Assembly: GCF_014202975.1 (NCBI RefSeq)
Contig: NZ_JACHHZ010000003.1
Span: 434,001-498,000 of the forward strand
Source: Povalibacter uvarum
GTDB lineage: Bacteria > Pseudomonadota > Gammaproteobacteria > Steroidobacterales > Steroidobacteraceae
Reading direction: 5' to 3'
Length of the DNA: 64,000 nucleotides
The notes under the pieces were generated by a model. The model had not been told where the DNA came from and did not search any database. It saw only the letters and a list, made by a program, of their open reading frames with translations. Positions 1,949 through 33,480 of this stretch are shown here, piece after piece; position 1 is the first letter of the stretch; every line of letters starts with the position of its first letter. Position numbers and translations under genes: made by a program.

Positions 1949-1955
1949 GGGCCGC

Positions 1956-5487: not shown

Positions 5488-5499
5488 GGCGCCGGCGAC

Positions 5500-16993: not shown

Positions 16994-19720
16994 ATGAAGT
17001 CGCATCGCTTGCGCAATCACGCGCGATTCGTTCGTACGGGTGCGGGGTCCTGTTCGGCAACACTACTCGGCGTCCTGCTCGCAGGCCAGAGCGCGAATGC
17101 GCAGGAGGCCGCAACACCCGCAGCCGGTGCGAGCGAGTTGACCGAGATCGTGGTCACTGGCAGCCGCATTCGCGGCACTGCCCCGGTGGGATCCGCGGTC
17201 GTGGCCGTCGGGCGGGCCGAGATCGACACTGCCGCCGTCGTCAATACGACGCAACTCATCCAGGAAGTGCCGCAGGTTTTCAACCTGGGCATTTCCGAGA
17301 ACTCGCGCGGTCAGTCCGGCGGCAACAGCAACATCACCCTGGGGTCGACGATCAATCTGCGCGGCCTGGGGCCGTTCGCGACATTGACTCTGATCGACGG
17401 GCACCGTGGCGTGCCGCAGGGCACGAGCGGTCTCGCGGTCGATCCTTCCACGATCCCGATGCTCGCTCTGGAGCGTGTGGAAATCGTTGCCGATGGCGCT
17501 TCGGCAATCTACGGATCGGATGCGGTAGCAGGCGTCGCGAACCTGATCCTGCGGCGCAACTTCGAGGGGTTCGAGATCCGTGGCCGCTATGGTGTTGCGG
17601 ACGAGGCCGATGAGAATCAGGTCGGCATGATCTATGGGCATACGTGGAGCAGCGGCCAGGTCACGATCGCCGCGGAGCACCAGTTTCGCTCGTCGCTGAA
17701 TGGGGAGGATCGCGACTTCTTCCGGGCGGATCTGCGCGATGAGGGGGGACGCGACTATCGATCGCGTCTGTGCCAGCCCGGAAACATCGTCGTCGGCTCA
17801 GGGGCTACAGCAGCGAGCTACGCGATCCCTGCTGGCGGTGTGACTGCGGGGAACGCTGCAGCGCTCGTCCCGGGAACTTTCAACCTTTGCGACCCGAACA
17901 CGTCGCAGGACCTGCTGCCGCAGCAGGAGCGCAACGGCTTCTCGCTGACGTTCGATCAGGACATCACCGAGAACTGGAGCCTGCATGCGAACGCATTCGG
18001 CACGAAGCGAGAATTCGAGAACCTGGTTGCATTCCAGACCGGCACACTGAGCGTCCCGACCACCAATGCGTTCTTCGTGGCGCCTCCCGGCGCGACCCTC
18101 GGGCTGTGCCCGGCGAGCGCGGGCGTTCCCGCGGGCACACGCTGCGAGACCGTGCAGTACTCGTTCCGCAACGATTCTCCGAAGCGGCTGAACACGGGCT
18201 TCTCCGAGTCCGCGCAGGCAACAGTCGGCACGACGATCGGGTTGCCGGCCGAGTGGCAGCTCAGCATCGACTACACCTACGGCCACAACGAAGACGAAGC
18301 GAACAATCCGCTGATTTCACAACCGCGGCTCGCAGCAGCGCTCGCGAGCAGCAACGCGTCGACGGCGTTGAATCCATTCGGGGGAGCGAACAGCGCTGCG
18401 GTTATTGACGATATTTTCTCGAACTTCCAGCTCGCGCAGGGTACGACGAACATGCACGTGATGGAGGCCGCTGTCGGCGGGCGCATTTTCGATCTGCCCG
18501 GCGGTGCCGTGCGCGTCGCCGCAGGCTACGAAGGCCAGCGCTACAACTACGCGACCGGGGTCAACAGCGTCTTCCGTCACTTCGAGCGGGATGTCGATTC
18601 GGGTTACCTCGAAGTCCTGTTGCCCATCGTCGGCTCGGGCAACGCAGTGACCGGAATCCGTTCTCTCACGCTCAATGTCGCTGGTCGCTACGACGACTAC
18701 AGCGATGTGGGCGACACGACCAATCCGAAGTATGGCCTCGATTGGAAGCCGATCGATTCCCTGACGTTCCGCGCAAGTTACGGCGAGTCGTTCCGTGCGC
18801 CCGGCATCGCTCAGATCTACGGCAATACGAATCGACTGTTCGTGCAGAACTATGCGGACCCGACGCTCGGCGGGGCCCTGCGAATCGGCGCGACGCTGTC
18901 CGGCGGCAATACGAATCTGCAGCCGGAAACGTCCGCGGCAACGACCTTCGGCGTCGAGTACGAACCGGACTTTTTTCCTGGCTTCAAGGGCGCGCTGACT
19001 TACTTCGACATCGACTATGACGGCCAGGTCGTGCAGTTCCTCTCGGACCTGACGATCCTCAACCGTGAGGCGGACTTCGCCGGCACGGGGATCATCGTGC
19101 GCAATCCGGACCCGGCGTTCATCGCCAATCTCGCGACGACGCTCGGCGTCACCGGTGTGCTGCCGCCTGTCGTCACGCTCTTCGTCGACGGTCGCTCATT
19201 CAATCTCGGATCGTCGACGATGCAGGGCTTCGATGCCCAGCTGTCGTATGCATGGCAGACGGACTCCATCGGCGACTTCAACGCGGCAGTGAACGGCAGC
19301 TATCTGACGAAGTACGAGTACGCGATTGCGCCGAGCGCTCAGCCTCAGGACCTGCTGGACGTCATCTACAATCCGCTGCGATTCAAGGCTCGCGGCAGTC
19401 TGAACTGGCACATCGGGGGACTGAATTCGCAGATCACGGTCAGCCATATCGGCGCGTACACCAACAATCTCTCGCCGGTGAAGCGCAATGTGGACAGCTT
19501 CACGTCTCTCGACCTGTACGTGGGCTACAGCTTCGCGGACATGTTCGGTGGAACGTGGCTCGAGGATCTCACCGTCGCGCTGGATGTGACGAATGCGCTC
19601 GACGAGGAGCCGCCGTTCGTCGATGTGGCGCAGAGTCCGAACGGCGGCGGCGGTTTCGATCCGACGTTGGTCAATCCGCTGGGTCGCGTGATCGGATTCT
19701 CGGTCAGTGCACGATTCTGA
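16994..19720 (+). CDS. TonB-dependent outer-membrane receptor
   Basis: 908 residues. ATG 16994 follows a GGGGGATGGG purine tract; earlier in-frame codons lack a signal peptide. Signal peptide ends near 'GQSANA/QEA'. A TonB-box-like 'ELTEIVVTGSRIRG' precedes the plug ('STINLRGLGPFATLTLIDGHRGVPQGT', 'IPMLALERVEIVADGASAIYGSDAVAGVANLILRRNF'). A 22-strand-type barrel ends 'VIGFSVSARF' with the terminal Phe needed for outer-membrane insertion. This type imports large or scarce substrates such as oligosaccharides or metal chelates; the ligand cannot be read here. It is tail to tail with the aromatic-acid MFS gene (15 bases) and divergent from the di-haem cytochrome. Confidence 0.95.
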   Translation: MKSHRLRNHARFVRTGAGSCSATLLGVLLAGQSANAQEAATPAAGASELTEIVVTGSRIRGTAPVGSAVVAVGRAEIDTAAVVNTTQLIQEVPQVFNLGISENSRGQSGGNSNITLGSTINLRGLGPFATLTLIDGHRGVPQGTSGLAVDPSTIPMLALERVEIVADGASAIYGSDAVAGVANLILRRNFEGFEIRGRYGVADEADENQVGMIYGHTWSSGQVTIAAEHQFRSSLNGEDRDFFRADLRDEGGRDYRSRLCQPGNIVVGSGATAASYAIPAGGVTAGNAAALVPGTFNLCDPNTSQDLLPQQERNGFSLTFDQDITENWSLHANAFGTKREFENLVAFQTGTLSVPTTNAFFVAPPGATLGLCPASAGVPAGTRCETVQYSFRNDSPKRLNTGFSESAQATVGTTIGLPAEWQLSIDYTYGHNEDEANNPLISQPRLAAALASSNASTALNPFGGANSAAVIDDIFSNFQLAQGTTNMHVMEAAVGGRIFDLPGGAVRVAAGYEGQRYNYATGVNSVFRHFERDVDSGYLEVLLPIVGSGNAVTGIRSLTLNVAGRYDDYSDVGDTTNPKYGLDWKPIDSLTFRASYGESFRAPGIAQIYGNTNRLFVQNYADPTLGGALRIGATLSGGNTNLQPETSAATTFGVEYEPDFFPGFKGALTYFDIDYDGQVVQFLSDLTILNREADFAGTGIIVRNPDPAFIANLATTLGVTGVLPPVVTLFVDGRSFNLGSSTMQGFDAQLSYAWQTDSIGDFNAAVNGSYLTKYEYAIAPSAQPQDLLDVIYNPLRFKARGSLNWHIGGLNSQITVSHIGAYTNNLSPVKRNVDSFTSLDLYVGYSFADMFGGTWLEDLTVALDVTNALDEEPPFVDVAQSPNGGGGFDPTLVNPLGRVIGFSVSARF

Positions 19721-19735
19721 CCGGGAATCCCGGCG

Positions 19736-20935
19736 TCACGCGGTCCGACGGAAGAAGCTGAGAAAGAAGACGGCTACGCAGGCGACGGCTGCGACGGGTG
19801 CCATGTATTGCACGACGTTCGCAGCTGTTGCTCCTCCGCCAAGAAGGAAGCCCGCCAGCAGCGGGCCCGCGATCGATCCCACGCGTCCGACAGCGATGCT
19901 CGCTCCAGAGCCTGTGCCCCGCATGATCGTCGGGTAGTACTGAGCTGCGACTCCATAGAGCGCGTAGTTGGCGCCGAGAAGCAGAAAGCCCGCGGCGCCG
20001 CTGAGTGCGAGCAGCGGGCCAAGGGAATGAGCGCTGCTCATCGCAATCAGAACCACGATGAGCAAGGCATAGGAGCCCGCTAACGGCCACCGTGGACCAA
20101 ACTGATCCACGAGTCTCGCGATCAGCAGCGCGCCCACCACACTGGCGAAATTGAACGCGAGCGCTGCCTGCGGAGCAACAGCGGGATCGAGGCCGGCTCC
20201 GATCACGAGTGTCGTGAGCCAGCCCAGGAACAGGTAGAGGATCAGGAGCGTCGGCAGGAACGCCAGCCACAGGAGCAGAGAAGGAAGGGCTCGTCCATCG
20301 CCGAAGAGGGCGTGCAGGATCGGCACGCGGTTGTCGGCTGTGCGTTCGCTGTGCCTAAGCGTCTCCTGCATGAGGAAATGCAGTGCAGCGGCGACGATCA
20401 ATGGCAGCACGCCTCCGATGACGAAGATGATGCGCCAGTCGAAATCCGGCGCCAGCACCTGCGTGAGCAACGCCGACAAGCCTCCGCCCAACGGCATGCC
20501 GCAGAACATGGATGCCGCTGTCGATGCGCGTTTGTCAGGTGAGCTGATCTCCGCCGCGACCGCCATCATGTTGGGGAGCGCGGCGCCGAAGCCGAGACCC
20601 GCGGCCAGCCGTGCGCCGAGCAGTGTGGGAAAGCTCCAGGCAGCCGCAGTCAGCAGCGTGAATACGCTGAAGATGAGCACGGAGCAGATGAAGACAGGCT
20701 TTCGCCCCATACGATCCGCCAGCCAGCCGCCAAAGCTCGCGCCGATGACGAGACCGAAGTTGCTGATTCCCAGCGCCCATCCCAGCTGCGCCTTCGTCAA
20801 TCCGAAGTACGGTGCGAGCTTCGGTGCGGCGACGCCCATCGCCTGGATGTCGAACCCTTCGAGGACGGCGACAGCGAAGCAAAGGCCGATGGTAAGTGCG
20901 GCGTTCGGACGTGCCGTCGCGGTTGACTCGCTCAT
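19736..20935 (-). CDS. MFS transporter, aromatic acid:H+ symporter (AAHS/PcaK-like)
   Basis: 399 residues, twelve transmembrane segments. 'VAVLEGFDIQAMGVAAPKLAPYFGLTKAQLGWALGISNFGLVIGASFGGWLADRMGRKPVF' contains the AAHS signature 'DG[FY]D' equivalent (GFD) and the GxLaDRxGRK loop. Known members carry 4-hydroxybenzoate, protocatechuate, vanillate, or hydroxycinnamates. It is last in the minus-strand run TetR-FadB-feruloyl-CoA synthase-MFS, 62 bases after the synthase start side. Uptake of the phenylpropanoid acid that the synthase activates is the likely role. Confidence 0.9.
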   Translation of the reverse strand: MSESTATARPNAALTIGLCFAVAVLEGFDIQAMGVAAPKLAPYFGLTKAQLGWALGISNFGLVIGASFGGWLADRMGRKPVFICSVLIFSVFTLLTAAAWSFPTLLGARLAAGLGFGAALPNMMAVAAEISSPDKRASTAASMFCGMPLGGGLSALLTQVLAPDFDWRIIFVIGGVLPLIVAAALHFLMQETLRHSERTADNRVPILHALFGDGRALPSLLLWLAFLPTLLILYLFLGWLTTLVIGAGLDPAVAPQAALAFNFASVVGALLIARLVDQFGPRWPLAGSYALLIVVLIAMSSAHSLGPLLALSGAAGFLLLGANYALYGVAAQYYPTIMRGTGSGASIAVGRVGSIAGPLLAGFLLGGGATAANVVQYMAPVAAVACVAVFFLSFFRRTA

Positions 20936-20997
20936 GCATTCCCCCCGTGTCGTTGCGCATCAGTGTACGCAACTCGTTATGGTGGCTTCAGCGGATT

Positions 20998-22836
20998 CTA
21001 TCGTTGCCGGATTCGAATGACTGTTGCCGGCGGATCGGCGTGATACATGAGCTCGACCGAAGCCGAGCGATGGCGCAGCAGTGCCTTCTGGTTGATCGAA
21101 CCCTTGTCAGTGATCTCGCCGCCATCCAGCGATGGAGCGGAGGCGAGCAGCACGGCGCGCCGGATGTTCATGGAGCTGGCGGGAAAGCGCGTCGCATGGG
21201 CTTCGAGACGCTGCTGGAGCAGGTTGAGCAGCGGTGTGTGAGCCGCAAGCCAGTCGTACCCGGGCGAGTGCGACAGCGAGAGCTCGCGCGAGCAAGCCGC
21301 CAGGTCGGGAATCAGCAACGCAGTGAGGAACTCGCGGTCGAGCCCGGCGATGCCCACATCCTGGACCAGCGGCGAGAGCGCCGCGATCAACGTTGCTCGT
21401 AGCGGTCCGACACTCACCCACGTGCCGCTGGCGAGTTTGAAGTCCTCGGCAATGCGGCCATCGAAGAGAAGTCCCTTGCGCGGGTCTGTCGGATCGATCG
21501 GTCTCACGGCGTCGCCGAGCCTATAGAAGCCTTCCTCGTCAAACGCGGCAGCGGTCAGATCAGGGCGGCGCCAGTATCCCCGCGTCACGCTCGGGCTCTT
21601 CACACGAATCTCGAGCTTGCCGTCGATCGGCGTGAGTTTCACGAGATTGCCTCTTGCGGGCAGCCCGATCACGCCCGCGCGCGACATGGCGGGCGTCGTG
21701 AAGGTGACGGACGGACCGGTTTCCGTTGCGCCGAGTCCGGACAGCATCGGGATCCTGAAGCCGCGTTCAGCGATCGAGATCTCATCGAGCGTGTCGAGCG
21801 TGTGCTGGGACAGCGATGCGCCAGCGAAGAAGTAAGCCTGCAGGCGGCGGAAGAATTTTTTCCGCAGCGACGCGTCCTCCTTGAGCTGTACGGCAAGCGC
21901 GTCGAAGCCCTTCGGCACGTTGAAGTAGACAGTCGGCGATACCTCGCGCAGATTTCGAATCGTCGTCGCGAATCCGCCCGGCGTCGGCTTGCCGTCGTCG
22001 ATGTAGAACGAGCCGCCGTTCAACAGCACGAGGCCAACATTGTGGCTGCCGCCGAACGTATGGTTCCACGGCAGCCAATCGACGATGACCGGTGGGTCGT
22101 TCGCGAGAAAGGGGAGCGCCTGGCGCACCATCACCGCGTTGCTGCAGAGCATGCGCTCGGTGATGATCACGGCCTTCGGCTCGCCGGTCGATCCCGAGGT
22201 CAGCAGGAATTTCACGACGCTGTCAGGGCCTGTCCTGGAATGCGCGTCTGCGAGTTCCTTGCCGGGCATTGTTTCGAGTGCCTCGAGCGTCAGCGCGTCG
22301 CGGTCGCCGATCTTGTCCGTATCGGCAAGCAACAATACGTCGGAAGGCGCCACCTGCGTTACCGCGCGGGCGAAAGTCGCACTGTCGAATGCGGCGACAA
22401 GGCCCGGTGTGAGCAGCCCGAAGACGTAGCGCAACTTGGCAAGTTCGCCCGAAGACAGCGAATAGGAGGGTGAGACGGCGCAACAGGGAATGCCGGCCCA
22501 CGCTGCTGCAAATGCGAGAACGAGATGCTCGATGCTGTTTCCAGAGAGGATTGCGATCGGGCGTTCCGCGGATAGACCACGTCCGAGGAGTCCCGCGGCG
22601 ACTCGCTGAACCCGACCGAGCATTTCCCGGTAAGTCAGCGCTTGCCAATCGCCGTCATTGAAACGACGAGCGATGAGGATGCGGTCTGGCGCCGTCTTTG
22701 CCCAGTGCCCGAGCATATCCATGGAGCGCGCGGGAGACGCATCGATCGGTTCGCGAGGCCGCAGCAGCATGGAACCATCCGCGCGATGCTCGACATCGGC
22801 ATCGAACGGATCGGGTGTCCATGGGCTCGCGCTCAT
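20998..22836 (-). CDS. fcs: Feruloyl-CoA synthase-like acyl-CoA ligase (AMP-forming)
   Basis: 612 residues. ATG 22836 overlaps the FadB-like stop as ATGA; an upstream in-frame start at 22854 is less likely. ANL superfamily motifs: P-loop-like 'FLLTSGSTGEPKAVIIT', 'DWLPWNHTFGGSHNVGLVLLNGG', 'SGLGATETGPSVTFTTP', 'YRLGDAV' and 'LLFDGRIAEDFKLASGTWVSVGPLR'. The last two resemble feruloyl-CoA synthases more than general fatty-acyl ligases. The C-terminal 'GGEITDKGSINQKALLRHR' contains the catalytic Lys region. The enzyme would form feruloyl- or related cinnamoyl-CoA from acid, ATP and CoA. Chain length and substrate are inferred from resemblance. Confidence 0.85.
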   Translation of the reverse strand: MSASPWTPDPFDADVEHRADGSMLLRPREPIDASPARSMDMLGHWAKTAPDRILIARRFNDGDWQALTYREMLGRVQRVAAGLLGRGLSAERPIAILSGNSIEHLVLAFAAAWAGIPCCAVSPSYSLSSGELAKLRYVFGLLTPGLVAAFDSATFARAVTQVAPSDVLLLADTDKIGDRDALTLEALETMPGKELADAHSRTGPDSVVKFLLTSGSTGEPKAVIITERMLCSNAVMVRQALPFLANDPPVIVDWLPWNHTFGGSHNVGLVLLNGGSFYIDDGKPTPGGFATTIRNLREVSPTVYFNVPKGFDALAVQLKEDASLRKKFFRRLQAYFFAGASLSQHTLDTLDEISIAERGFRIPMLSGLGATETGPSVTFTTPAMSRAGVIGLPARGNLVKLTPIDGKLEIRVKSPSVTRGYWRRPDLTAAAFDEEGFYRLGDAVRPIDPTDPRKGLLFDGRIAEDFKLASGTWVSVGPLRATLIAALSPLVQDVGIAGLDREFLTALLIPDLAACSRELSLSHSPGYDWLAAHTPLLNLLQQRLEAHATRFPASSMNIRRAVLLASAPSLDGGEITDKGSINQKALLRHRSASVELMYHADPPATVIRIRQR

Positions 22837-24941
22837 GTGCGTTCGGCCTGCCATTGCGCGATGGTCTTGCCTTCGCGCACGAGCTGGTCGAGCAGCGCGG
22901 CCGGCTGCCAGTGCATCGGGCCAAACTGCTTCTGATACTTCAGTATTCCGTCGCGCAGCCGCTCGAGGGTGATCGTGTCCGCGTAGAGGAGGGGGCCACC
23001 GCGATAGCGCGGAAACCCGTAGCCGGCGATCCAGACCACATCGACATCGGATGCACGCAGGGCGACTCCTTCTTCGAGAATCCGGATACCTTCATTCAGC
23101 AAGGGATAGAGACAGCGTTCGACGATTTCCTGGCTCGTATGCTGCCGCTGTTCGATGCCGAGCTTCGCGGCGCGCGCGCGCAGGATTGCGATCGCGTCGG
23201 GATCGTCGAACCTCGTGCGATTGCCCGCCTCGTAGCGATAGTAGCCTTTGCCGGTCTTCTGGCCGAGGCGTCCGGCCTCGTGGAGGGCAAAGTCAGCCTG
23301 GTAGTACGTCGGGTCCGGTGGATACTGGCTCGCATTCGCCGTGTGAACGTTCACGCCAACGTCGATGCCCGCCATGTCGAATACGCTGAGGATGCCCATG
23401 GCCATGCCCCATTCCTCGAGCGCGGTGTCGACCTGGCGCGGGGTTGCGCCTTCCAGCACGATGCGTTCAGCTTCACGTGCATAGCCTTCCATCATGCGAT
23501 TTCCGATGAAGCCGTAGCAGACCTTCGCGAGCACCGGAGTCTTGCGAAGCGGCTTCGACAGATCCATGACAGTCCGGATCGTGCCCGGCGACGTCTTTGC
23601 CGTGCGCACCACTTCGAGCAGCGGCATCACATTCGCGGGCGAAAAGAAATGCATGCCGATCACGTCCTCAGGGCGTGATGTAGCGGCGGCGATCACGTCG
23701 ATGTCGAGCGTTGACGTGTTGGTGGCCAGCACCGCGCCCGGTTTCGCGAGCTTGTCGAGAGTGGAGAAGATCTTCCTCTTGAGATCCATGTTCTCGAAGA
23801 CGGCTTCGATGATCACGTCGGCATCGCGAAGGTCTTCGTAGGCGAGCGATCCGCGGATCAGGCCCAGGCGTTGTGCTTTCTCTTCCACCGTCAGTCGGCC
23901 ACGCTGCACGAGGCCAGCGTACGTCTTGTCGAGTCCCTTGAGACCGCGATCGAGCGCCTCCTGCGTCGAATCCAGCAGCGTGACCGGGATACCGGCATTC
24001 GCGAAGCAGATGGCGATGCCGCTGCCCATCGTTCCCGCGCCGATGACGGCCGCGGACTTGATCGGGCGCGAGGACGCGTCGGCAAGCCCTGGAATCCGGC
24101 GAGTCTCGCGTTCCGCGAAGAAGGCATACACCGCGCCGCGCGACTCATCGGTCTGCTTGCAACCGTTCACGAGCCGGGTCTCGAGCTCCAGCCCATCCTT
24201 CAGCGACAGCTGCGCGGAGGCGCTGACCGCTTCGACTGCAACGAGGCCGGCGTTCCGATTCGGATACTTCTTCCTCGCTTCATCTTTCATGCGAGCGATG
24301 ATCTCGGCCGTTGCGGTGGCTGCGTCGACTGCCATTTCGCCGGTCCGTCGAGGGCCGCGTCCGGCCGCCAGCAGATCCCGCGTGTACTCTATCGCGCCAG
24401 CCTGCAGGTCGCCGTCGATGACGGCATCGAGAAAGCCTATGGTTTGCGCCTGCGACGTATCAACTGGACGGGCAGAGAGAATGAAATCGAGCGCCTTCTC
24501 CACGCCGATCAATCTCGGCATGCGCTGTGTGCCGCCGGCGCCCGGAATGATGCCGAGCGTCACTTCGGGCATACCGAAGCGCGTTCCGGGTGCGGCGACA
24601 CGATAGTGGCCGGCGAGAGCGATCTCGAGACCGCCGCCCATCACCGTGCCATGCATCGCAACGACGACGGGAATCGGCAGGTTCTCCCAGCCGTTGAACA
24701 GCTCCCTGTACTCCTCTTCCCGTGGCGGTCCGGAGAATTCCCCGATATCAGCGCCCGAGAAGAACGTCGAACCGTCGCAGCGAAGAAGTACGGCCTTGAT
24801 CCCGGATATTGCGCGAATCTGCTCCAGCGCCTGCCGCAGGTCGGCGCGCACGGCGGCGGTGATCGTATTGACGGGGGGATTGTTGACAGTGACGACAGCG
24901 ATGTCGCCATCCTGTCGCAGCGAAACGGTGCGGGTGCTCAA
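22833..24941 (-). CDS. Bifunctional enoyl-CoA hydratase / 3-hydroxyacyl-CoA dehydrogenase (FadB/FadJ-like)
   Basis: 702 residues. Start is TTG 24941 with AGAGGA upstream. Residues ~1-190 form a crotonase domain ('SGADIGEFSG', 'GTVMGGGLEIALAGHYRVAAPGTRFGMPEVTLGIIPGAGGTQRMPRLIG' with both catalytic Glu). Residues ~295-480 form an NAD-binding dehydrogenase ('SAAVIGAGTMGSGIAICFANAGIPVTLLD', 'IGMHFFSPANVMPLLEVV'). Two C-terminal helical domains follow. It would hydrate an enoyl-CoA and oxidise the 3-hydroxy product. Sitting between TetR and feruloyl-CoA synthase, opposite a thiolase, it fits beta-oxidative side-chain shortening of cinnamates. Confidence 0.92.
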   Translation of the reverse strand: MSTRTVSLRQDGDIAVVTVNNPPVNTITAAVRADLRQALEQIRAISGIKAVLLRCDGSTFFSGADIGEFSGPPREEEYRELFNGWENLPIPVVVAMHGTVMGGGLEIALAGHYRVAAPGTRFGMPEVTLGIIPGAGGTQRMPRLIGVEKALDFILSARPVDTSQAQTIGFLDAVIDGDLQAGAIEYTRDLLAAGRGPRRTGEMAVDAATATAEIIARMKDEARKKYPNRNAGLVAVEAVSASAQLSLKDGLELETRLVNGCKQTDESRGAVYAFFAERETRRIPGLADASSRPIKSAAVIGAGTMGSGIAICFANAGIPVTLLDSTQEALDRGLKGLDKTYAGLVQRGRLTVEEKAQRLGLIRGSLAYEDLRDADVIIEAVFENMDLKRKIFSTLDKLAKPGAVLATNTSTLDIDVIAAATSRPEDVIGMHFFSPANVMPLLEVVRTAKTSPGTIRTVMDLSKPLRKTPVLAKVCYGFIGNRMMEGYAREAERIVLEGATPRQVDTALEEWGMAMGILSVFDMAGIDVGVNVHTANASQYPPDPTYYQADFALHEAGRLGQKTGKGYYRYEAGNRTRFDDPDAIAILRARAAKLGIEQRQHTSQEIVERCLYPLLNEGIRILEEGVALRASDVDVVWIAGYGFPRYRGGPLLYADTITLERLRDGILKYQKQFGPMHWQPAALLDQLVREGKTIAQWQAERT

Positions 24942-24965
24942 AGCGAAATCCTCTTCGTTAAACGG

Positions 24966-25619
24966 TTACGCCGACTGGAGCAGATCATTAGCGGCTGCGG
25001 CACTGAGTCGCGCTGCCTGGGCATTGGCAATACCCATGGCGCGAAGCAATCCGGCGGCCATGTTGGCGGCGACGGCGTGCGGCGGCGTAACGAGACGTTC
25101 TTCGAGAACGTGGCGCAGCACGATGACGATGACGCCCATCACGAGCAGGACACCGCTCTCCAGATCGACATGACGAAAGCGTTGGCTGCGGATGCCGTTA
25201 TGCACGACATCGCGCAGGCCGCGGTTGATCGGAGCATCGACCATCGTTGCGCCTGAGTTCAGTCGCCACAGTACGCGCGCGCTGTCGGGATGCTCGATTG
25301 CAAAGTGCGCGAATACACACAGGGCGCGCGCCAGGTGTTCAGCGGGATCGTCGATGTCCTTGTTTGCATCGTTGACGGCCTGTTCGACTTGTCGGCGAAC
25401 TGCAGCTGCGATCTCGCGCGCGAACACATCTTTGTCCGTGAAGTGGTTGTAGAAGCTGCCTTTCGCAACCTCCGCGGCTTCGACGATCTCGTCGACGCTC
25501 ACGCCATCGACGTCGCGTGCCGCGAACAGCGCTCTGCCGGCACTCAGCAGTGCTTCGCGAGTGCGCGCGCGGCGGCGATCGGTGAGGCGGCGGGAGGGAC
25601 CGGCCTTGGGCTGCGCCAC
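24966..25619 (-). CDS. TetR/AcrR-family regulator
   Basis: 217 residues from GTG 25619. HTH: 'RARTREALLSAGRALFAARDVDGVSVDEIVEAAEVAKGSFYNHFTDKDVFAREIA' with the typical 'GSFYNHF' recognition region. The remainder is an all-helical ligand-binding domain ('LARALCVFAHFAIEHPDSARVLWRL'). Head of the minus-strand catabolic operon and divergent from the thiolase gene, with a 16-bp palindrome between them. It probably represses both sides and responds to an aryl- or acyl-CoA, by analogy with other TetR regulators of CoA-dependent catabolism. Confidence 0.9.
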   Translation of the reverse strand: MAQPKAGPSRRLTDRRRARTREALLSAGRALFAARDVDGVSVDEIVEAAEVAKGSFYNHFTDKDVFAREIAAAVRRQVEQAVNDANKDIDDPAEHLARALCVFAHFAIEHPDSARVLWRLNSGATMVDAPINRGLRDVVHNGIRSQRFRHVDLESGVLLVMGVIVIVLRHVLEERLVTPPHAVAANMAAGLLRAMGIANAQAARLSAAAANDLLQSA

Positions 25620-25664
25620 GGTATGACTGCTCCAGTTCTGTCGAATTGACTACATCGTACAATA

Positions 25665-25680
25665 ATGACTAAATGGTCAT
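25665..25680. promoter_or_regulatory. Palindromic operator, likely TetR site
   Basis: ATGAC-TAAATG-GTCAT: perfect 5-bp arms around a 6-base centre, in the 89-bp gap between TetR (start 25619) and the thiolase (start 25709). A -10-like TACAAT lies at 25658-25663, just beside it. The position fits autoregulation and control of both transcripts. Confidence 0.6.
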
Positions 25681-25708
25681 AAAGGTGTTTTTCGCCAGGA
25701 CCGCATCC

Positions 25709-26929
25709 ATGACTCGTTTCGCCGATGTCGAGATTCCATACGGGGCTTACTGGTCGACGCCGTTCGCGAAATGGCAGGGCGCATTGCAGCACCTGCACAG
25801 CGTGCGGCTCGCCGCGCACGTAGCCAAGTCGGAGCTGGCGAAGCGACAGATCGAAACCGCACAGTTCGATTTCGGCGTGCTCGGTATCACGCAGGTGCAA
25901 TACCAGTCGTTCCAGGGCGCGATATGGCCCCTATATGAAATCGGTATGACTCACGTGGCCGGGCCGCAGTTGTCGCAGGTTTGTTCGACCGGTCCGCGCA
26001 TCGTGCTGACTGCCGCCGCCGAGATTCAGTTGGGAATGGCGACTACTGCGCTGGTGCTGGGCGCGGATCGGACATCGAACGGTGCGCATATTTACTATCC
26101 GGCGCCGGCGGGATTCGGTGGAATGGGGCAGTCGGAAGACCAGGTGACTTACAATTTCTCGCACGACGTCAACGGCGGGCATTCGATGCTGCAGACGGCC
26201 GAGAATGTCGCGAAGAAGTACGGCGTCTCGACGCAGGAGCAGCACGATGTCGTCCTGCGGCGCTACGAGCAGTATCAGCAGGCACTGAAGGACGATCAGG
26301 CCTTCCAGCGGCGCTACATGACGCTGCCGTTCTCCGTGCCGAAGTACAACTTCAAAGGCGAGGCCGGCGTACTCACTGCGGATGAGGGCGTGTTTCCGAC
26401 GAGCGTCGAGGGCCTGGCGCGGCTGAAGCCGGTCTTGCCGGGTGGCACCGTGACGTTCGGCAGTCAGACACATCCCGCCGACGGCAACTGCGGCATGGTG
26501 ATAACGACGCCGGAGAAGGCGCGGCAGCTCAGCCGTGATCCGTCGATCCGCGTTCGTATTCTCGGGTTCGGCCAGGCTCGTGCCGATCTCGCGCACATGC
26601 CCGAAGCGCCCGTGCCCGCGACGAAGCGCGCTCTCGAGAACGCGGGCGTCTCGATCCGCGATATCAAGGCTGTCAAATCGCACAACCCGTTCGCAGTGAA
26701 CGACATCGTGTTCGCGCGCGAGATGGGCTTCCCCCTTGAGAAGATGAACAACTACGGCTGCTCGCTCGTATGGGGTCATCCGCACGCAGCCACTGGTCTT
26801 CGCGCAATCATCGAACTGATCGAGGAACTCGCGCTGCAAGGAGGCGGCGTCGGTCTGTTCCAGGGCTGCGCAGCGGGCGACTCGTCAATGGCAGCGGTGA
26901 TCGCGGTCGACGACCGTAGCTCGAAGTAG
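25709..26929 (+). CDS. Thiolase family protein (acyl-CoA acetyltransferase)
   Basis: 406 residues. ATG 25709 has AGGA 8 bases upstream; an ATG at 25673 in the operator gives only a nonconserved extension. 'QLSQVCSTGPRIVLTAAAEIQLGMATTALVLGADRTSNG' carries the nucleophilic Cys. 'KSHNPFAVNDIVFAREMG' and 'NNYGCSLVWGHPHAATGLRAIIELIEEL' supply the GHP histidine. The second catalytic Cys region 'FQGCAAGDSSMAAVI' is near the C-terminus. It resembles SCP2/acetyl-CoA acetyltransferase-type thiolases. In context it could cleave an aryl-3-ketopropionyl-CoA into aroyl-CoA and acetyl-CoA. Confidence 0.9.
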   Translation: MTRFADVEIPYGAYWSTPFAKWQGALQHLHSVRLAAHVAKSELAKRQIETAQFDFGVLGITQVQYQSFQGAIWPLYEIGMTHVAGPQLSQVCSTGPRIVLTAAAEIQLGMATTALVLGADRTSNGAHIYYPAPAGFGGMGQSEDQVTYNFSHDVNGGHSMLQTAENVAKKYGVSTQEQHDVVLRRYEQYQQALKDDQAFQRRYMTLPFSVPKYNFKGEAGVLTADEGVFPTSVEGLARLKPVLPGGTVTFGSQTHPADGNCGMVITTPEKARQLSRDPSIRVRILGFGQARADLAHMPEAPVPATKRALENAGVSIRDIKAVKSHNPFAVNDIVFAREMGFPLEKMNNYGCSLVWGHPHAATGLRAIIELIEELALQGGGVGLFQGCAAGDSSMAAVIAVDDRSSK

Positions 26930-26954
26930 CGAGCAACGCGAACGGAACATTCAT

Positions 26955-29012
26955 GTGAGTGCTCAAAATATCGCTGGCCTCGATCGGCTGTTCCGGCCGC
27001 GCTCGATCGCTGTCGTCGGCGCATCCGCATCCGAATCCAAGGTCGGCTATCAGCTGGTCGATGCTCTTCGTGGTTTCGATGGCCAGGTCTTTCCCATCAA
27101 CCCCAAGGCGACGCAGATCGCGGGAAGGCAGTCGTATCCGCAGCTCAGTGCGTTACCTGTCGTTCCGGATCTCGTGCTCCTCGGGGTGCCGGCAAACGCA
27201 TGCGTTGATGCATTGACAGAGGCTGCGCGGATCGGTGTCGGCGGTGCGGTGATCGTGGGTGGCGGCTTTGCGGAGTCAGGCCCAGATGGCGCAGCACTGC
27301 AAGCCCAGATCGAACGCGTCTGCAAGGGCAGCAGCCTGCGACTTCTCGGGCCGAACACAAGTGGTTACACGCGACCGGGCACGGGTTGTCACGCGTGTTT
27401 CCTGCCGACTGTTCAGCAGTTCGCGGCTGGTCCGCTAAGTATCGTCGCGCAGAGCGGCGGTGTGAATCTCACATTGGCACTGCTCGCGCATCGTCAGCGG
27501 CTGGGCATCAGGCTGGCTGTCGGTCTTGGGAATGCAGTGGACGTCGATGCGGCCGATGTCATCGAGTATCTCGCGCACGACCCGCAGACGAAGATGATCG
27601 GTCTGCACCTGGAAGGAGTTGCGGAAGGTCGCAGGCTCTATGACGTGTTGTCGCACGCGACGACGCTGAAGCCCGTCATCGTGTTGCCCGTCGGTCGCGC
27701 CCAAGTTGCGGATTTTGCTCAGTCGCACACGGGCAATCTCATGGGGCAGCATGCTGTGACAGTGGCCGCGCTGCGCCAGGCCGGGGCGATTGTCGTCGAC
27801 GCGACGCAGTCCTTGGTCGACGCAGCGGTCGGCTTTCTGGGCGGACGAATCGCGCCGAAAGCGAATCCCGGTGTCGGTATCGTGACGGGGCAGGCAGGTC
27901 CCGGGCTCATCATTCTCGACGCGTTGCGCAGCGCCGCCGTGAATGTGCCGACACTCGCGCCAGCGACGGTTGCCGAAATATCGAAGCATCTGCCGCCCCT
28001 GACGTATTTGCAGAATCCCATCGATACGGGCCGGCCGTCGCCGCTGTTCGCGGACGTGATGGTCGCGGCCTCGCGGGACCCAGCCATCGATGCAATCATC
28101 ACGTTTGCGCTCGACGAGCCCGCTGCGATCGACGCAGTGGCTGTTTTCGAGCGCGCGCGTAAGGACATCAAGCAACCGCTGGTGTTCGCGACGCTGGGCC
28201 TGGAGGGGTCAGTCGACGTCACGCAGAACAAGCTGCAGTCGCGTGACATTCCCGCATTGGAATCGCCGGAGCGCGGCGCCGTGGCCGTGCGAGCACTTGT
28301 CGACGATGCGAAGGCGCAGTATCGACGGCTCATCACGACGAGAACCGTTGCGGCTGCCGGTCGGGTGATTGCCCGGGCGCTGGACGAAGCGTCAGCCAAG
28401 GCGTTGCTGGCAGAGTTCGGCATCCGTTCACCCCGCTCACGCTCGTGCAGGAACGAAGAAGAAGCGGTAACCGCCTTCGATCAGCTCGACAAGCCGGTCG
28501 TCGTAAAAGTCCTGGACCCGCGGATTGCGCACAAGACCGAAGTCGGCGGCGTGCATCTCGGCGTTCGCACAGCCGATCAGTTGAGCGCGGCACTGCAAAA
28601 GATCGATGCGATCCCGGGCGATATCAGCGACCGCGGCTACCTGATCGAGGAGATGGCATCGAGCGGCATCGATTTGATTCTGGGCGCTCGACGCGATCCG
28701 AGTTTCGGCGCGACAGTGCTGCTCGGCCTCGGAGGTACCGAGGCCGAGGCGCTCAAGGACGTGAGCATTCGTCTTGCGCCGCTCGACCGTGTCGACGTCG
28801 AAGAAATGCTGCGCGAACTGCGCGGCTCGGCGTTGCTGGATGGGTGGAGGGGCGCGCCGGCAGTCGACCGCGACGCAATCATCGACGCCGTCGTTGCGGT
28901 CGCGGATCTCATGGAAGCCGCTGCCGATCTGCGGGAGCTGGACATCAACCCCTTGCGATGCACATCGAAGGGTGTTCAGGCACTCGATGCGTTGATGATC
29001 TGGAGCGACTAG
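26955..29012 (+). CDS. ADP-forming acyl-CoA synthetase (acetyl-CoA synthetase/NDP-forming family)
   Basis: 685 residues from GTG 26955; an ATG two bases upstream is out of frame. CoA-binding Rossmann domain: 'LFRPRSIAVVGASASESKVGYQLVDALRGF'. Ligase domain with phosphohistidine loop 'SHTGNLMGQHAVTVAALRQAGAIVVD'. ATP-grasp domain from ~460: 'AKALLAEFGIRSPRSRSCRNEEEAVTAF', 'KPVVVKVLDPRIAHKTEVGGVHLGVRT', 'EMASSGIDLILGARRDPSFGATVLLGLGG', 'LRELDINPL'. Runs 25 bases after the thiolase. It can run in either direction: activating an acid, or releasing acid from the thiolase product while making ATP. Its 3' end meets the FAH gene tail to tail three bases away. Confidence 0.88.
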   Translation: MSAQNIAGLDRLFRPRSIAVVGASASESKVGYQLVDALRGFDGQVFPINPKATQIAGRQSYPQLSALPVVPDLVLLGVPANACVDALTEAARIGVGGAVIVGGGFAESGPDGAALQAQIERVCKGSSLRLLGPNTSGYTRPGTGCHACFLPTVQQFAAGPLSIVAQSGGVNLTLALLAHRQRLGIRLAVGLGNAVDVDAADVIEYLAHDPQTKMIGLHLEGVAEGRRLYDVLSHATTLKPVIVLPVGRAQVADFAQSHTGNLMGQHAVTVAALRQAGAIVVDATQSLVDAAVGFLGGRIAPKANPGVGIVTGQAGPGLIILDALRSAAVNVPTLAPATVAEISKHLPPLTYLQNPIDTGRPSPLFADVMVAASRDPAIDAIITFALDEPAAIDAVAVFERARKDIKQPLVFATLGLEGSVDVTQNKLQSRDIPALESPERGAVAVRALVDDAKAQYRRLITTRTVAAAGRVIARALDEASAKALLAEFGIRSPRSRSCRNEEEAVTAFDQLDKPVVVKVLDPRIAHKTEVGGVHLGVRTADQLSAALQKIDAIPGDISDRGYLIEEMASSGIDLILGARRDPSFGATVLLGLGGTEAEALKDVSIRLAPLDRVDVEEMLRELRGSALLDGWRGAPAVDRDAIIDAVVAVADLMEAAADLRELDINPLRCTSKGVQALDALMIWSD

Positions 29013-29015
29013 CGG

Positions 29016-29867
29016 CTACGAGACCTTGACGACGAGTTGGCCGAGGCCGGTGATCGTCGCGTTCACGGTATCGCCGGAACGAATCAGGCCGACTCCCGAA
29101 GGCGTTCCCGTGAAGATCACATCGCCCGGATGCAGTGTGTAGAACGACGAAGCGAACACGATGAGTTGCGGCACGCTCAGCACGAGATCACGCGTGTTGG
29201 CGCGCTGTCGGGGTTCGCCGTTGACTGACAGATCCAGGTCGAGCTGGCCGACATCGGCGATCTCGTCCGGGGTAGTGAGCCACGGACCAAGCACTGAATA
29301 GGTATCGCACGACTTGCGAATGCTGCGCTCTTCGGTGCCACGCAAGGTGATGTCCAGTCCGATGCAATAGCCGGCGACGTGACTCATGGCATCGCTCGAC
29401 GCGACTTTCGATGCGGTCTTGCCGATCACGACCGCGAGCTCGATTTCATGGTCCGTGCGACGGTCGGGCAGTGCCAGGCGAATGCCTTCGGAGGCACCGC
29501 ACATCGAGCTGCTGGCTTTGAGAAAGAGCCCGGTTTCCTGGATGCGGCGAAGCTGTTCTTTCGGAAATGTAGCGGCGTCCGCGGTCGCTTCGGCGATATG
29601 TGAAGCGTAGTTGACGGGCGCGGCAACCAGCTTCCCTGGATTCGCGATGGGCGAGAGCAGCGCTACGGAATCAAGGTCGATCGGGCTGGCGCTTGCGGCT
29701 TCGCGCTCGAGGGCTTCCTTCAGACCCGGGAGAGCATCGATGAATACGTCATGAGTCGGGAATGGATACCGCTGCGCGGGCAGCTGCGAAAGGACTGCCG
29801 TGACGTCGCGAATCTGTCCGCCTACGACGAGGCCGATGCGGTTCCGATCGAAGCGGCAGATGCGCAT
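29016..29867 (-). CDS. Fumarylacetoacetate hydrolase (FAH) family protein
   Basis: 283 residues. ATG 29867 has a perfect AGGAGG six bases upstream. N-terminal 'MRICRFDRNRIGLVVGGQIRDV' and the catalytic core 'GLFLKASSSMCGASEGIRLALPDRRTDHEIELAVVIGKTASKV', 'VAGYCIGLDITLRGTEERSIRKSCDTYSVLGPWLTT', 'PGDVIFTGTPSGVGLIRSGDTV'. The metal ligands are in the E-x-E pair of 'DHEIELAV' and the Asp of 'GLDIT'. Family members cleave C-C bonds in acylpyruvates or isomerise/decarboxylate ring-cleavage products (HpaG, MhpD/CatE-like). It may finish degradation of an aromatic intermediate; exact substrate unknown. Confidence 0.9.
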   Translation of the reverse strand: MRICRFDRNRIGLVVGGQIRDVTAVLSQLPAQRYPFPTHDVFIDALPGLKEALEREAASASPIDLDSVALLSPIANPGKLVAAPVNYASHIAEATADAATFPKEQLRRIQETGLFLKASSSMCGASEGIRLALPDRRTDHEIELAVVIGKTASKVASSDAMSHVAGYCIGLDITLRGTEERSIRKSCDTYSVLGPWLTTPDEIADVGQLDLDLSVNGEPRQRANTRDLVLSVPQLIVFASSFYTLHPGDVIFTGTPSGVGLIRSGDTVNATITGLGQLVVKVS

Positions 29868-29968
29868 GCGAGCCTCCTGAGCGATAGGCACGCATTCTAG
29901 CGATACGCGAGCAATGACTTCGTGATCTTTCGCGAAGGCCGGCGCGACAATGGTGATGGCTCGCGACG

Positions 29969-31020: not shown

Positions 31021-33480
31021 ATGAAGAAGAATCGAGCGCGGACCGCCCGCGCCTGTAGCAATCCGCATCAATCACTGCGCGCGTGGCTGGCATCGGGGGT
31101 CGCAATTGTTGCGCTGGCCGTGACCGGCGTCGGCGATTCCCATGCAGGATCGAACGGGGGCGGATCGAATCATGGTCATCACGACCGGGACGATCGCGGC
31201 AAGGGGCATGATCGGGGCAAAGACGTCGAGCTGCGGGTCCTCTCGAGCCCGGCGCGTTATGTGTCCGGCGGCGATGCGCGGATCCAGGTGACCGCGGCGC
31301 CCGGCCTGCACAACAAGATTCAGCTCTATCTCAACGGCCAGCAGATCAAGCCGGTGCTGCATTCGAGCGGCCATCGTCTGGAAGGCATCGTCAGCGGATT
31401 GCGAGACGGCGAAAACTGGCTCGAGGTGTACGCGAAGGGCCGCTGGGAGCGTGATGCGATCAAGCTGACCAACTATCCGATCACCGGCCCGATGTTCTCG
31501 GGTCCGCAGCAGCACCCGTTTGTGTGCACGACGACGCAAAGCGCGGTCGGTCGTCAGCCGATCGTTGAGAGCGCGACACCTCCGGGTACGCGGGTCTTCG
31601 ATACAGCTGGCAACATCGTCGGTTACAGCCAGGATTGTTCGATCGAGACCTTCGTCACCTATCTCTATCGCACCACCGGCAATGCATGGGCTGCGTTGCC
31701 GACGAACGGCACGCGTCCCGCCGATATGTCGAACGTGACGTTGGCCGACGGCAGCGTCGTCGACTTCATCGTCCGGCGCGAAGTGGGATCGATCAATCGC
31801 TTCCTCTACAGCTTCGCGATGCTCGCACCCGCGGGTGAGAATCCGGCGAAACCCGATCTCAGCCGCTGGAATCGCAAGCTGCTCTACTGGTTCCAGGGCG
31901 GCGTCGCGATCGGTCACTCGCAGGGCACGGTGCACAGCGGTTCGCTCAACCCCGACATTCTGCGCCTCGGCTACGCGATCGTTCATTCGAGCGGCAACAA
32001 CACCGGTACGCACTACAACCTGCAGGTAGCGGGCGAGACGGCGATGATGACGAAGGAGCGCTTCATCGAACGCTATGGCGTTCCGTCCTACACCGTGGGT
32101 CTCGGCGGTTCAGGCGGCGCAATTCAGCAGTACATCCTCGGCCAGAATCAGCCGGGCATCCTCGACGCGCTGCTGCCGGTGCAGTCGTATCCCGACATGG
32201 TTACGCAGACGATCCACGTCGGCGATTGCGAACTGCTCGAGTACTACATGGACGCGACTGATCGCAACAATGCGAAATGGCGCGTGACCAAGAATCGCAG
32301 CTGGCTCGTGGGTTTCAACGCGGAGGAAGGATTCGACAAGGTCAACGATCCTCTGGCGCCGCTCAAGACCGCACTCGGTTATGGAACCGCAGTCGGGTCT
32401 ACGGAGTGCATACCCGCATGGCGCGGACTGTCGCCGCTTGCAATGAATCCGTGGTACGGCCAGGCAGCGAACCAGCAGAACTACGAACCGCAATCGGCGA
32501 TCGCTGCCATTCGCTGGACGCACTGGGACGATCTGCGAAACATCTATGGTGTCGACTCGACGGGTGCGGCGCGCCCGACGTGGGACAACGTCGGCGTGCA
32601 GTATGGCCTGCAGGCGCTGCATGACGGCAACATCACGTTCGAGGAATTCCTGCACCTGAACTGGAACATTGGCGGCTGGAAGCAGCCGAGCGAGATGGTG
32701 CAGGAAGGCTTCCCGTTCTTCGGGACATCGAATGCCGAGATCGCCAAGGCACTGAGTGTTCCCGGCTACTTCGATCCGTGGAGCCGCCGCAACATGAACG
32801 TGAGCCCGAGCCCAACAGAACCTGCGCCGCGTACCAGTGGCGACTTCAGTGCGATGCGCGCCGCATACACGTCCGGAATGGTGTTCAGCGGCGAGCTCGA
32901 ACGGCCGACCATCGACCATCGGCAGTACATGGAGCGTGAGCTCGACATGCACAACGTGCATCAGAGCTTCGCCGTGCGCAAACGTGTGATCGAGAAGATG
33001 GGCAACTCCGACATGCTCGTGATCTGGTTCACCGATACGATGCCGGGCGTGCCGAAGGCAAGCCAGTCGATGGACGCCATCGCCGTGATGGATGAGTGGG
33101 TCCGCAACATTCAGCGAAACCCGCACAAGGGAATTCGCGGCAACCGTCCGGCGCGTGCTGTCGACAGCTGCTTCGATGTGAGCGGACAGTTGATCTATGC
33201 GGGACGCGACGCCTGGAACGGTATTCTCGACGACAAGCCGGTGGGTCCGTGCACGCAACGCTTCCCGATCTACTCGACCTCGCGCATCGTGGCGGGAGCA
33301 CCGATCGAAGGCGGTATCTACAAGTGCGCACGCAAGTCGGTCGATCGGGCGGTGGCCGACGGCACCTACGTGCCGGCTTCGCCCACTGCTGAGCAGATCG
33401 AGAGCCTGAAGAAGATCTTCCCCGAAGGTGTCTGCGACTACAGCCGTCCCGATCAGGCTCGGCCGCGGCGATCGCACTGA
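31021..33480 (+). CDS. Large secreted alpha/beta-hydrolase-like protein (DUF6351-like)
   Basis: 819 residues. ATG 31021 after GGGGGCCGGAAG. Signal peptide 'LASGVAIVALAVTGVGDSHA/GS'. Next comes a low-complexity His/Asp/Gly/Lys segment (~43-68), then a beta-rich N-terminal domain ('ARIQVTAAPGLHNKIQLYLNGQQIKP'). The body has a nucleophile-elbow-like 'GLGGSGGAIQQYI' (Ser364) after 'GYAIVHSSGNNTGTHYN', several paired Cys ('GDCELLEYY', 'STECIPAW', 'SCFDVSG', 'GPCTQRF', 'YKCARK', 'GVCDYS') and 'NSDMLVIWFTDTMPGVPKASQ'. I recall this layout from the uncharacterised DUF6351 family; the esterase-like fold is inferred from the elbow. Substrate unknown. Confidence 0.75.
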   Translation: MKKNRARTARACSNPHQSLRAWLASGVAIVALAVTGVGDSHAGSNGGGSNHGHHDRDDRGKGHDRGKDVELRVLSSPARYVSGGDARIQVTAAPGLHNKIQLYLNGQQIKPVLHSSGHRLEGIVSGLRDGENWLEVYAKGRWERDAIKLTNYPITGPMFSGPQQHPFVCTTTQSAVGRQPIVESATPPGTRVFDTAGNIVGYSQDCSIETFVTYLYRTTGNAWAALPTNGTRPADMSNVTLADGSVVDFIVRREVGSINRFLYSFAMLAPAGENPAKPDLSRWNRKLLYWFQGGVAIGHSQGTVHSGSLNPDILRLGYAIVHSSGNNTGTHYNLQVAGETAMMTKERFIERYGVPSYTVGLGGSGGAIQQYILGQNQPGILDALLPVQSYPDMVTQTIHVGDCELLEYYMDATDRNNAKWRVTKNRSWLVGFNAEEGFDKVNDPLAPLKTALGYGTAVGSTECIPAWRGLSPLAMNPWYGQAANQQNYEPQSAIAAIRWTHWDDLRNIYGVDSTGAARPTWDNVGVQYGLQALHDGNITFEEFLHLNWNIGGWKQPSEMVQEGFPFFGTSNAEIAKALSVPGYFDPWSRRNMNVSPSPTEPAPRTSGDFSAMRAAYTSGMVFSGELERPTIDHRQYMERELDMHNVHQSFAVRKRVIEKMGNSDMLVIWFTDTMPGVPKASQSMDAIAVMDEWVRNIQRNPHKGIRGNRPARAVDSCFDVSGQLIYAGRDAWNGILDDKPVGPCTQRFPIYSTSRIVAGAPIEGGIYKCARKSVDRAVADGTYVPASPTAEQIESLKKIFPEGVCDYSRPDQARPRRSH

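Follow-up and report, generated by a model that had tools for sequence, protein, structure and literature searches.

A predicted TetR-controlled beta-oxidation module for arylpropenoates in Povalibacter uvarum and its probable connection with gentisate cleavage

The divergent cluster and its palindrome

The genome of Povalibacter uvarum (6.32 Mb, 98% complete) was analysed around a 64,000-nucleotide stretch (C3:434001-498000), referred to here as the window; positions given without a contig or locus name count from its first letter. Between positions 19736 and 29012, the window encodes a TetR-family regulator and five enzyme or carrier genes, all of them intact full-length frames, which together form a well-supported CoA-dependent beta-oxidative arylpropenoate module. 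With a probability of about 0.6, the module serves the beta-oxidation of hydroxycinnamates followed by ring opening via gentisate and not via vanillin or vanillate. This assignment builds on which genes are present and how far they are conserved, on their neighbourhood in two relatives and on the clade of the synthetase, from which we infer every reaction, the substrate and the direction in which the synthetase works.

Two divergent transcripts start from the 89-base gap between the regulator and thiolase genes. The leftward transcript (minus strand) carries the genes for TetR, a FadB-like protein, a CoA ligase and a carrier, separated by a gap of 24, an overlap of 22 and a gap of 62 bases, respectively. 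The rightward transcript (plus strand) carries the thiolase gene and, 25 bases further, the gene of an ADP-forming synthetase.

The carrier (19736-20935) belongs to the MFS superfamily (MFS_1, 1.3e-42) and to the aromatic acid:H+ symporter (AAHS) type. It was closest to MhpT (390.5 bits, cut-off 410), the 3-(3-hydroxyphenyl)propionate transporter, and scored lower with TIGR00895 (264 bits, cut-off 418.6) and PcaK (172.5 bits, cut-off 770). The AMP-forming aryl-propenoate CoA ligase of the feruloyl-CoA synthase type (20998-22854; AMP-binding, 9.6e-46) contains the motifs TSGSTGEPK and, at the C-terminus, INQK; it reached 687.6 bits with PRK12582, under the cut-off of 777, and among the matches listed 9 of 25 plasmid relatives were annotated as feruloyl-CoA synthase. 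The FadB-like protein (22833-24941) combines enoyl-CoA hydratase and 3-hydroxyacyl-CoA dehydrogenase in a single chain (ECH_1 1.8e-33, 3HCDH_N 1.8e-63, 3HCDH 1.8e-32). Its residues 10-693 align to 6ium_B with 581 bits, and Glu106/Glu126 (GGGLE, GMPE) and MHFFSP at 430 are present.

The thiolase (25709-26929; Thiolase_N 4.3e-22, Thiolase_C 8.2e-21), for which the alignment makes a start at 25709 likelier than at 25673, is proposed to cleave 3-oxo-3-arylpropanoyl-CoA into aroyl-CoA and acetyl-CoA. It has Cys92, His325 (HNPFA), GHP at 356 and Cys387, the two cysteines and the histidine being unchanged across seven aligned sequences, the window's counted. The synthetase (26955-29012) contains CoA_binding_2, Succ_CoA_lig and ATP-grasp_5 (1.3e-59) domains and SHTG at residue 257, and these three domains together with the motif place it in the NDP-forming acyl-CoA synthetase superfamily; it remained under all curated NCBIfam cut-offs, with 412 against 1200 for the best. 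The motifs of the FadB-like protein, thiolase and synthetase presumably have the catalytic roles usual in their families. Since the ligase, carrier and synthetase all scored under curated NCBIfam cut-offs, their names hold at the family level only.

The gene content and single palindrome described by the sequence-only reading were borne out by the full-length frames, strong Pfam matches and motifs. Its proposal of a two-step FadB plus thiolase conversion instead of an Ech-type p-hydroxycinnamoyl-CoA hydratase/lyase (HCHL) also agreed with a check of ECH proteins (E 1e-40; best 25 families per protein). Among the matches listed, one of the 10 of 14 ECH stretches scanned matched the HCHL model (154 bits, cut-off 276); the window FadB was scanned separately and the model was not among the best 25 of its 87 families, and three hits (frames of 699-890 aa) lay outside the scan. 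Vanillin dehydrogenase was, as the sequence-only reading stated, absent within the cluster. The four functions required by a pathway of the Agrobacterium fabrum type, namely CoA ligase, hydratase, 3-hydroxyacyl-CoA dehydrogenase and thiolase, are encoded side by side. Because the cluster contains no acyl-CoA dehydrogenase gene, a natural substrate with the double bond in place would be expected, which would favour cinnamates over phenylpropionates.

The palindrome AATGACTAAATGGTCAT (25664-25680) is paired with AATGACTAAATAGTCAT in the TetR/thiolase gap of a congener (genome G024), the only congener having the cluster. The pattern AATGACTAAATNGTCAT, with up to two mismatches allowed, has two sites in the genome (6.3 Mb), one exact in this gap and the other with two mismatches, and the backward control gave none. 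The palindrome is most simply read as the operator of TetR for this divergon alone, and the TetR protein (24966-25619, minus strand; TetR_N 9.2e-13; 76% identity to the congener's) is a likely repressor of both divergent transcripts. Control of the MarR type, as by HcaR in A. fabrum, was not found, the regulator being of the TetR family.

Two adjacent genes were considered as parts of the module and dropped: the TonB receptor gene (16817-19720), as the congener cluster is flanked there by other genes, and the FAH gene (29016-29891), as the congener flank also differs on that side. The product of the latter shares just 41% identity over 152 residues with a fumarylpyruvate-hydrolase-like gene product of the congener.

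Relatives of the cluster and the unlinked gentisate genes

Thiolase matches were found in 8 of the 196 genomes of the order (E < 1e-60) and in 2 of the 14 genomes of the genus (E < 1e-100), the own genome counted in both cases, and the stretches around the thiolase in the seven other genomes of the order were compared. In the congener, all six genes are kept in the same order with 63-80% identity (73% for the carrier). Three extra genes stand there between thiolase and synthetase, encoding a flavin monooxygenase, a gentisate 1,2-dioxygenase (TIGR02272, 546.3 bits, cut-off 442.1) and an FAH-family protein with the look of a fumarylpyruvate hydrolase, the whole row from thiolase to synthetase being divergent from TetR, FadB, ligase and MFS. 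In a genome from another family of the order (G043), relatives of the monooxygenase, dioxygenase, FAH protein and synthetase likewise adjoin the thiolase, and the cluster includes a MaiA-type isomerase (264 bits, cut-off 171).

Among the remaining stretches, three (L025, L026 and L027) hold the thiolase with a phenylalanine-aminomutase-like gene (in L026, TIGR04475, 728.6 bits, cut-off 800) and a class III aminotransferase gene. L026 and L027 also hold a PRK12582-like ligase, and L027 benzoyl-CoA reductase subunits B and C, both above cut-off. These gene sets fit a thiolase forming aroyl-CoA from aroylacetyl-CoA. In L028 and L029, the thiolase lies beside a CoA-transferase and other genes.

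When GTDB contigs were searched more widely, using the thiolase alignment, and the best 80 of 573 relatives were taken with flanks of up to 9 kb, a ligase relative was present at 12 loci (42-48% identity), FadB matches at 5 (30-32%), synthetase matches at 2 (29% and 48%) and the gentisate set at one, on the contig of the G043 cluster. In Marinobacterium lutimaris, the thiolase has as neighbours a CoA-transferase, a hydratase, an SDR, an acyl-CoA dehydrogenase, a ligase (PRK12582, 760.2 bits, cut-off 777) and an electron-transfer flavoprotein, with the CoA-transferase and the flavoprotein read by eye.

The thiolase family provided observations of its own. The aminomutase-like, class III aminotransferase, thiolase and PRK12582-like ligase genes occur together in L025 (without the ligase), L026, L027, L099 and L103, which suggests a route from beta-phenylalanine to benzoyl-CoA. 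At L053:8263-19039 (Aromatoleum toluvorans) and similar loci among L043-L122, a thiolase relative heads a multi-gene run with an AMP-forming ligase, caprolactamase/acetophenone-carboxylase-like alpha and beta subunits, an acyl-CoA dehydrogenase, a B12-binding protein and a methylmalonyl-CoA-mutase-like protein. Single-linkage clustering placed the alpha-like family in 43 and the mutase-like family in 34 of 89 thiolase loci; we know of no pathway with the gene set of the A. toluvorans run. A 59% identical thiolase was encoded on a contig labelled as a Klebsiella pneumoniae MAG (L115), a bin that is probably mislabelled.

Genes corresponding to the extra genes of the congener lie outside the window in P. 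uvarum. A run of dioxygenase, FAH and MaiA-type isomerase genes is located at C4:37.7-40.1 kb, with the gentisate dioxygenase (C4:39-40 kb; TIGR02272, 544.6 bits, cut-off 442.1) 73% identical to that of the congener. A second site, C3:394.1-396.0 kb, precedes the window by about 38 kb and consists of an FAH gene followed by the monooxygenase gene, the monooxygenase (C3:395 kb) being 74% identical to its counterpart. Both of these FAH genes are 78-79% identical to the fumarylpyruvate-hydrolase-like gene of the congener. Nine genomes were searched with the dioxygenase and monooxygenase of the congener. Gentisate dioxygenase (E < 1e-10) occurred in exactly three of them, the own genome, G024 and G043. 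These were also the genomes in which the monooxygenase matched at E < 1e-100, and weaker matches occurred in G024, G043 and G123; a further congener, G048, had no match to thiolase, dioxygenase or monooxygenase.

In the class, the monooxygenase was found at E < 1e-60 in 2 of 369 genomes, the own and the congener's. It is 49% identical to haloarchaeal proteins whose genes adjoin gentisate genes, and its closest plasmid relatives are haloarchaeal (43-49%; 30 of 37 records listed), with a Streptomyces relative at 44%. The dioxygenase was present in two of the five monooxygenase-relative regions fetched.

The sequence CTGTAAG-N5-CTTAC occurs in both lower-pathway promoters and nowhere else in the genome, and joint control of these two sites, separate from the TetR site, is likely. 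Joint control of upper and lower genes by TetR was considered and is unsupported, as there is no second exact operator and the lower promoters hold this different repeat. A gentisyl-CoA thioesterase was not seen by eye beside the cluster or the two lower sites; no genome-wide search for it was made.

The synthetase clade, the proposed route and its alternatives

Relatives of the synthetase (E < 1e-60) were found in 62 plasmid records, and the regions around 13 of them were compared (L133-L145). Three of the five monooxygenase regions (L125, L126 and L129) also hold a synthetase match, which gave 16 regions, in which neighbours were sought by tblastn at 1e-12 and not by annotation. Relatives of both gentisate dioxygenase and FAH were present in 13 of the 16, from Massilia, Rhizobium, Rhodococcus, Pseudarthrobacter, Glutamicibacter, Streptomyces and seven haloarchaea, several of them mutually related. 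The three regions without them encode rather distant synthetases, namely L129 (one subunit, 35%; same plasmid as L143), Variovorax L144 (36%) and Paracoccus L145 (32-34%); as the least similar gentisate-linked synthetase, from Haloarcula halophila (L143), shares 36-37%, the border is thin by identity alone.

In a tree of 23 rows, the 16 gentisate-linked synthetases were separated from the other rows by a branch that had 100/99 support and was recovered in 200 of 200 bootstrap trees, and the window synthetase was sister to that of the congener. All 15 other sampled members of the clade, from haloarchaea to actinobacteria, lie near gentisate genes; the window row owes this label to its relatives and its own genome rather than to the genes adjoining it. 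Sampling was thin for the seven non-members, four of them coming from whole genomes having no dioxygenase or one elsewhere.

The Rhodococcus, Pseudarthrobacter and Rhizobium clusters contain a different monooxygenase, nearest to the salicylyl-CoA 5-hydroxylase model (374-437 bits, cut-off 1078), and a ligase that is DHB-AMP-ligase-like in Pseudarthrobacter (593 bits, cut-off 724) and of the benzoate-CoA-ligase family in Rhizobium (522 bits, cut-off 375). By their gene content, they look like clusters for the conversion of hydroxybenzoate to gentisyl-CoA. The Pseudarthrobacter cluster of monooxygenase, synthetase, ligase and gentisate genes ends with a gene annotated as adenylate kinase (L136:15425-15994), which could convert the AMP of the ligase to ADP for an ATP-forming synthetase. 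On a Massilia putida plasmid (L133/L149), synthetase, cupin dioxygenase and FAH genes run into a beta-oxidation set of dehydrogenase, hydratase, ligase, acyl-CoA dehydrogenase and electron-transfer flavoprotein, with MaiA and FadB nearby. It appears to be another join of beta-oxidation and gentisate genes; a monooxygenase of the P. uvarum type and the thiolase were not found in the part searched.

On the gentisate assignment, the TetR-controlled upper module would act on a hydroxycinnamate imported by the carrier. The ligase would convert it with CoA and ATP to hydroxycinnamoyl-CoA, AMP and PPi, the FadB-like protein would hydrate the side chain and carry out the NAD-linked oxidation, and thiolysis would yield hydroxybenzoyl-CoA and acetyl-CoA. 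A para-type hydroxylation by the off-window flavin monooxygenase, probably at the level of the CoA ester, could give gentisyl-CoA. The synthetase would use gentisyl-CoA or hydroxybenzoyl-CoA with ADP and Pi to form the acid, CoA and ATP, regaining part of the activation cost, and gentisate dioxygenase, maleylpyruvate isomerase and fumarylpyruvate hydrolase would lead from gentisate through maleylpyruvate and fumarylpyruvate to fumarate and pyruvate. The sequence-only reading had suggested that the synthetase conserves the thioester energy, and such a CoA-releasing, ATP-forming role is plausible on comparative grounds. In its favour, the P. uvarum module and the Rhizobium and actinobacterial clusters already include an AMP-forming ligase, and the annotation of those plasmid regions names no thioesterase.

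On balance, the substrate would be m- or p-hydroxycinnamate; the carrier leans to MhpT. From m-coumarate, 3-hydroxybenzoyl-CoA would be formed and only hydroxylation at C6 would then be needed. The para isomer, p-coumarate, would demand of the hydroxylase an NIH-type shift, which has been reported for 4-hydroxybenzoate in Haloarcula D1 (PMC4005966, PMC10815724). The wider proposal, that the single clade in haloarchaea, actinobacteria and proteobacteria represents an ATP-recovering gentisyl-CoA (aroyl-CoA) synthetase which joins hydroxycinnamate beta-oxidation to gentisate without free hydroxybenzoate, p-coumarate being processed by C1 hydroxylation of 4-hydroxybenzoyl-CoA with migration of the CoA-thioester (NIH shift), is tentative and rather doubtful.

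Several findings weigh against the gentisate assignment. Five of the eight genomes of the order with the thiolase have neither the dioxygenase nor a close monooxygenase. The ring genes of P. uvarum are unlinked to the window cluster and have a different putative operator, and their candidate aroyl-CoA hydroxylase, the monooxygenase at C3:395 kb, reached no curated cut-off. Three of the five monooxygenase regions (L127, L128 and L129) yielded no dioxygenase, one of them looking like a Streptomyces biosynthetic region, and a relative of the P. uvarum monooxygenase occurs in just 3 of the 13 gentisate-linked regions (L125, L126 and L139). The repeat of the lower promoters was derived from those same promoters, its backward control also gave two sites, and a repeat of equal quality is common to 5 of 2346 promoter pairs (69 upstream regions of the own genome). 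Pseudarthrobacter Sphe3 cured of its synthetase/gentisate plasmid is described as degrading 4-hydroxybenzoate at similar rates (PMC10815724), so the plasmid cluster is dispensable for that acid. Finally, the genome encodes an alternative sink, protocatechuate 3,4-dioxygenase (PcaH; TIGR02422, 319 bits, cut-off 296).

A serious though less probable alternative concerns the synthetase, which could be an activating enzyme, either a second, FerA-like CoA ligase for hydroxycinnamate or hydroxybenzoate or a partner that completes the CoA ester once a ligase has adenylated the acid, as has been proposed for the degradation of salicylate. PF13380 (CoA_binding_2) is also part of FerA-type feruloyl-CoA synthetases (PMC5863372), and a metagenomic feruloyl-CoA synthetase is reported to contain the conserved His at which ADP-forming acetyl-CoA synthetase becomes phosphorylated (PMC6388921). 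The actinobacterial relative sits between a monooxygenase gene and an AMP-binding gene, and the scanned neighbours are salicylyl-CoA 5-hydroxylase-like (L135, L136) and DHB-AMP-ligase-like (L136) proteins. Moreover, a thioesterase is annotated in all seven haloarchaeal gentisate regions, six times beside the synthetase and, in Natrinema, about 4.6 kb from it, and is thus another candidate for CoA release there. However, the window, Rhizobium and actinobacterial clusters already have an AMP-forming ligase, and the Rhizobium and actinobacterial regions are without an annotated thioesterase, the plasmid gene tables being incomplete; in Massilia, a thioesterase is annotated at the far end of the cluster.

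It is unlikely, though in keeping with the feruloyl-CoA synthase type of the ligase and with PcaH, that ferulate or p-coumarate is converted to vanilloyl-CoA or 4-hydroxybenzoyl-CoA and the free acid then enters the protocatechuate (PcaGH) route, as A. fabrum is reported to do with ferulate (PMC7797058). The synthetase clade and the gene order of the congener, with gentisate genes inside its cluster, point to gentisate instead, and the genome contained no VanA_C match at E 0.001 (the control matched 4 of 14 named genomes; LigM-type demethylases were not searched). With these pointers to gentisate, no VanA_C match and no HCHL match above cut-off among the ECH proteins scanned, the ferulate and vanilloyl-CoA named by the sequence-only reading as substrate and product are not supported, ferulate being biochemically possible. 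A role in the oxidation of ordinary fatty or other non-aromatic acids, for which FadB-like and thiolase folds are common, is very improbable given a cluster with an aromatic-type carrier, a feruloyl-type ligase and no acyl-CoA dehydrogenase, and given the aromatic neighbours of the thiolase and synthetase relatives.

Elsewhere in the window, positions 746-7956 encode four CoA-transferase-like proteins in a run (two of the CaiB type at E < 1e-60, two by eye) and an 818-residue protein without an NCBIfam match at E < 1e-60. A tannase-like DUF6351 protein (646 bits, no NCBIfam match) is encoded at 31021-33480, 2 kb from the module.

Comparison with known systems

The sequence-only reading was incomplete in that the lower pathway lies outside the window and the PF13380 likeness to FerA-type enzymes was missed. 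The automatic label 'feruloyl-CoA synthase' is an unsafe guide to the substrate. The gentisate assignment, if true, would give lignin-derived hydroxycinnamates a second fate, gentisate rather than protocatechuate. The last step of the CoA-dependent gentisate route is described as a hydrolysis, with the thioester energy lost (PMC4600096); a synthetase tracking gentisate genes in bacteria and archaea would allow energy recovery during aerobic aromatic catabolism to be tested directly. In the portions of the open-licence literature available, no publication was found that describes both modules joined in a bacterium or gives a role to the ADP-forming synthetase of gentisate clusters, which is weak evidence of absence.

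The beta-oxidative SpG8-1b ferulate pathway of A. fabrum (Atu1415-Atu1421), as described in PMC7797058, resembles the module in its succession of chemical steps, for which it has a feruloyl-CoA synthase, a hydratase, a dehydrogenase and a beta-keto-thiolase. It differs in its separate hydratase and dehydrogenase, MarR/GntR control and conversion of vanillate to protocatechuate, whereas the P. uvarum module has a fused FadB, TetR control, the ADP-forming synthetase and the predicted gentisate link. In Aromatoleum aromaticum EbN1, the 3-(4-hydroxyphenyl)propanoate module (EbN1_C30520-70) is likewise a phenylpropanoid beta-oxidation leading to 4-hydroxybenzoyl-CoA under a TetR-like regulator, PprR; likened by description, it differs in the saturated side chain, ABC transport and formation of benzoyl-CoA by a presumptive reductive dehydroxylation (PMC9765128). 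The FerA enzyme of SYK-6 shares the PF13380 domain with the window synthetase (PMC5863372), which is a domain-family comparison only; in SYK-6, a FerB-type enzyme makes vanillin with no thiolase step, and a VceA-type vanilloyl acetate route has been reported there (PMC11837543).

CoA-ester routes to gentisate are known from salicylate degradation (PMC4600096, PMC13215587). The salicylate pathway has a CoA-dependent entry (PMC4600096) and similar-looking plasmid clusters hold a synthetase relative, but its substrate is salicylate and there is no side-chain beta-oxidation, the WA46 genes being likened by description. Pseudarthrobacter has a DHB-AMP-ligase-like enzyme as its ligase, and the hydroxylases that were scanned (L134, L135 and L136) are of another subfamily than the P. 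uvarum monooxygenase. The upper beta-oxidation module is thus of a known kind and the CoA-dependent gentisate route is also known; judged by this comparison, their combination is new. The haloarchaeal gentisate clusters on Halobaculum and Halorussus plasmids share with P. uvarum the monooxygenase (49%), relatives of the dioxygenase and FAH protein and an ADP-forming synthetase. They differ in the two-subunit form of the synthetase and the thioesterase annotated nearby, and homologues of the window thiolase and FadB were absent from the haloarchaeal regions. Haloferax D1227, which is reported to grow on cinnamate, 3-phenylpropionate and 3-hydroxybenzoate via gentisate (PMC4005966), provides an archaeal precedent for the overall logic proposed here.

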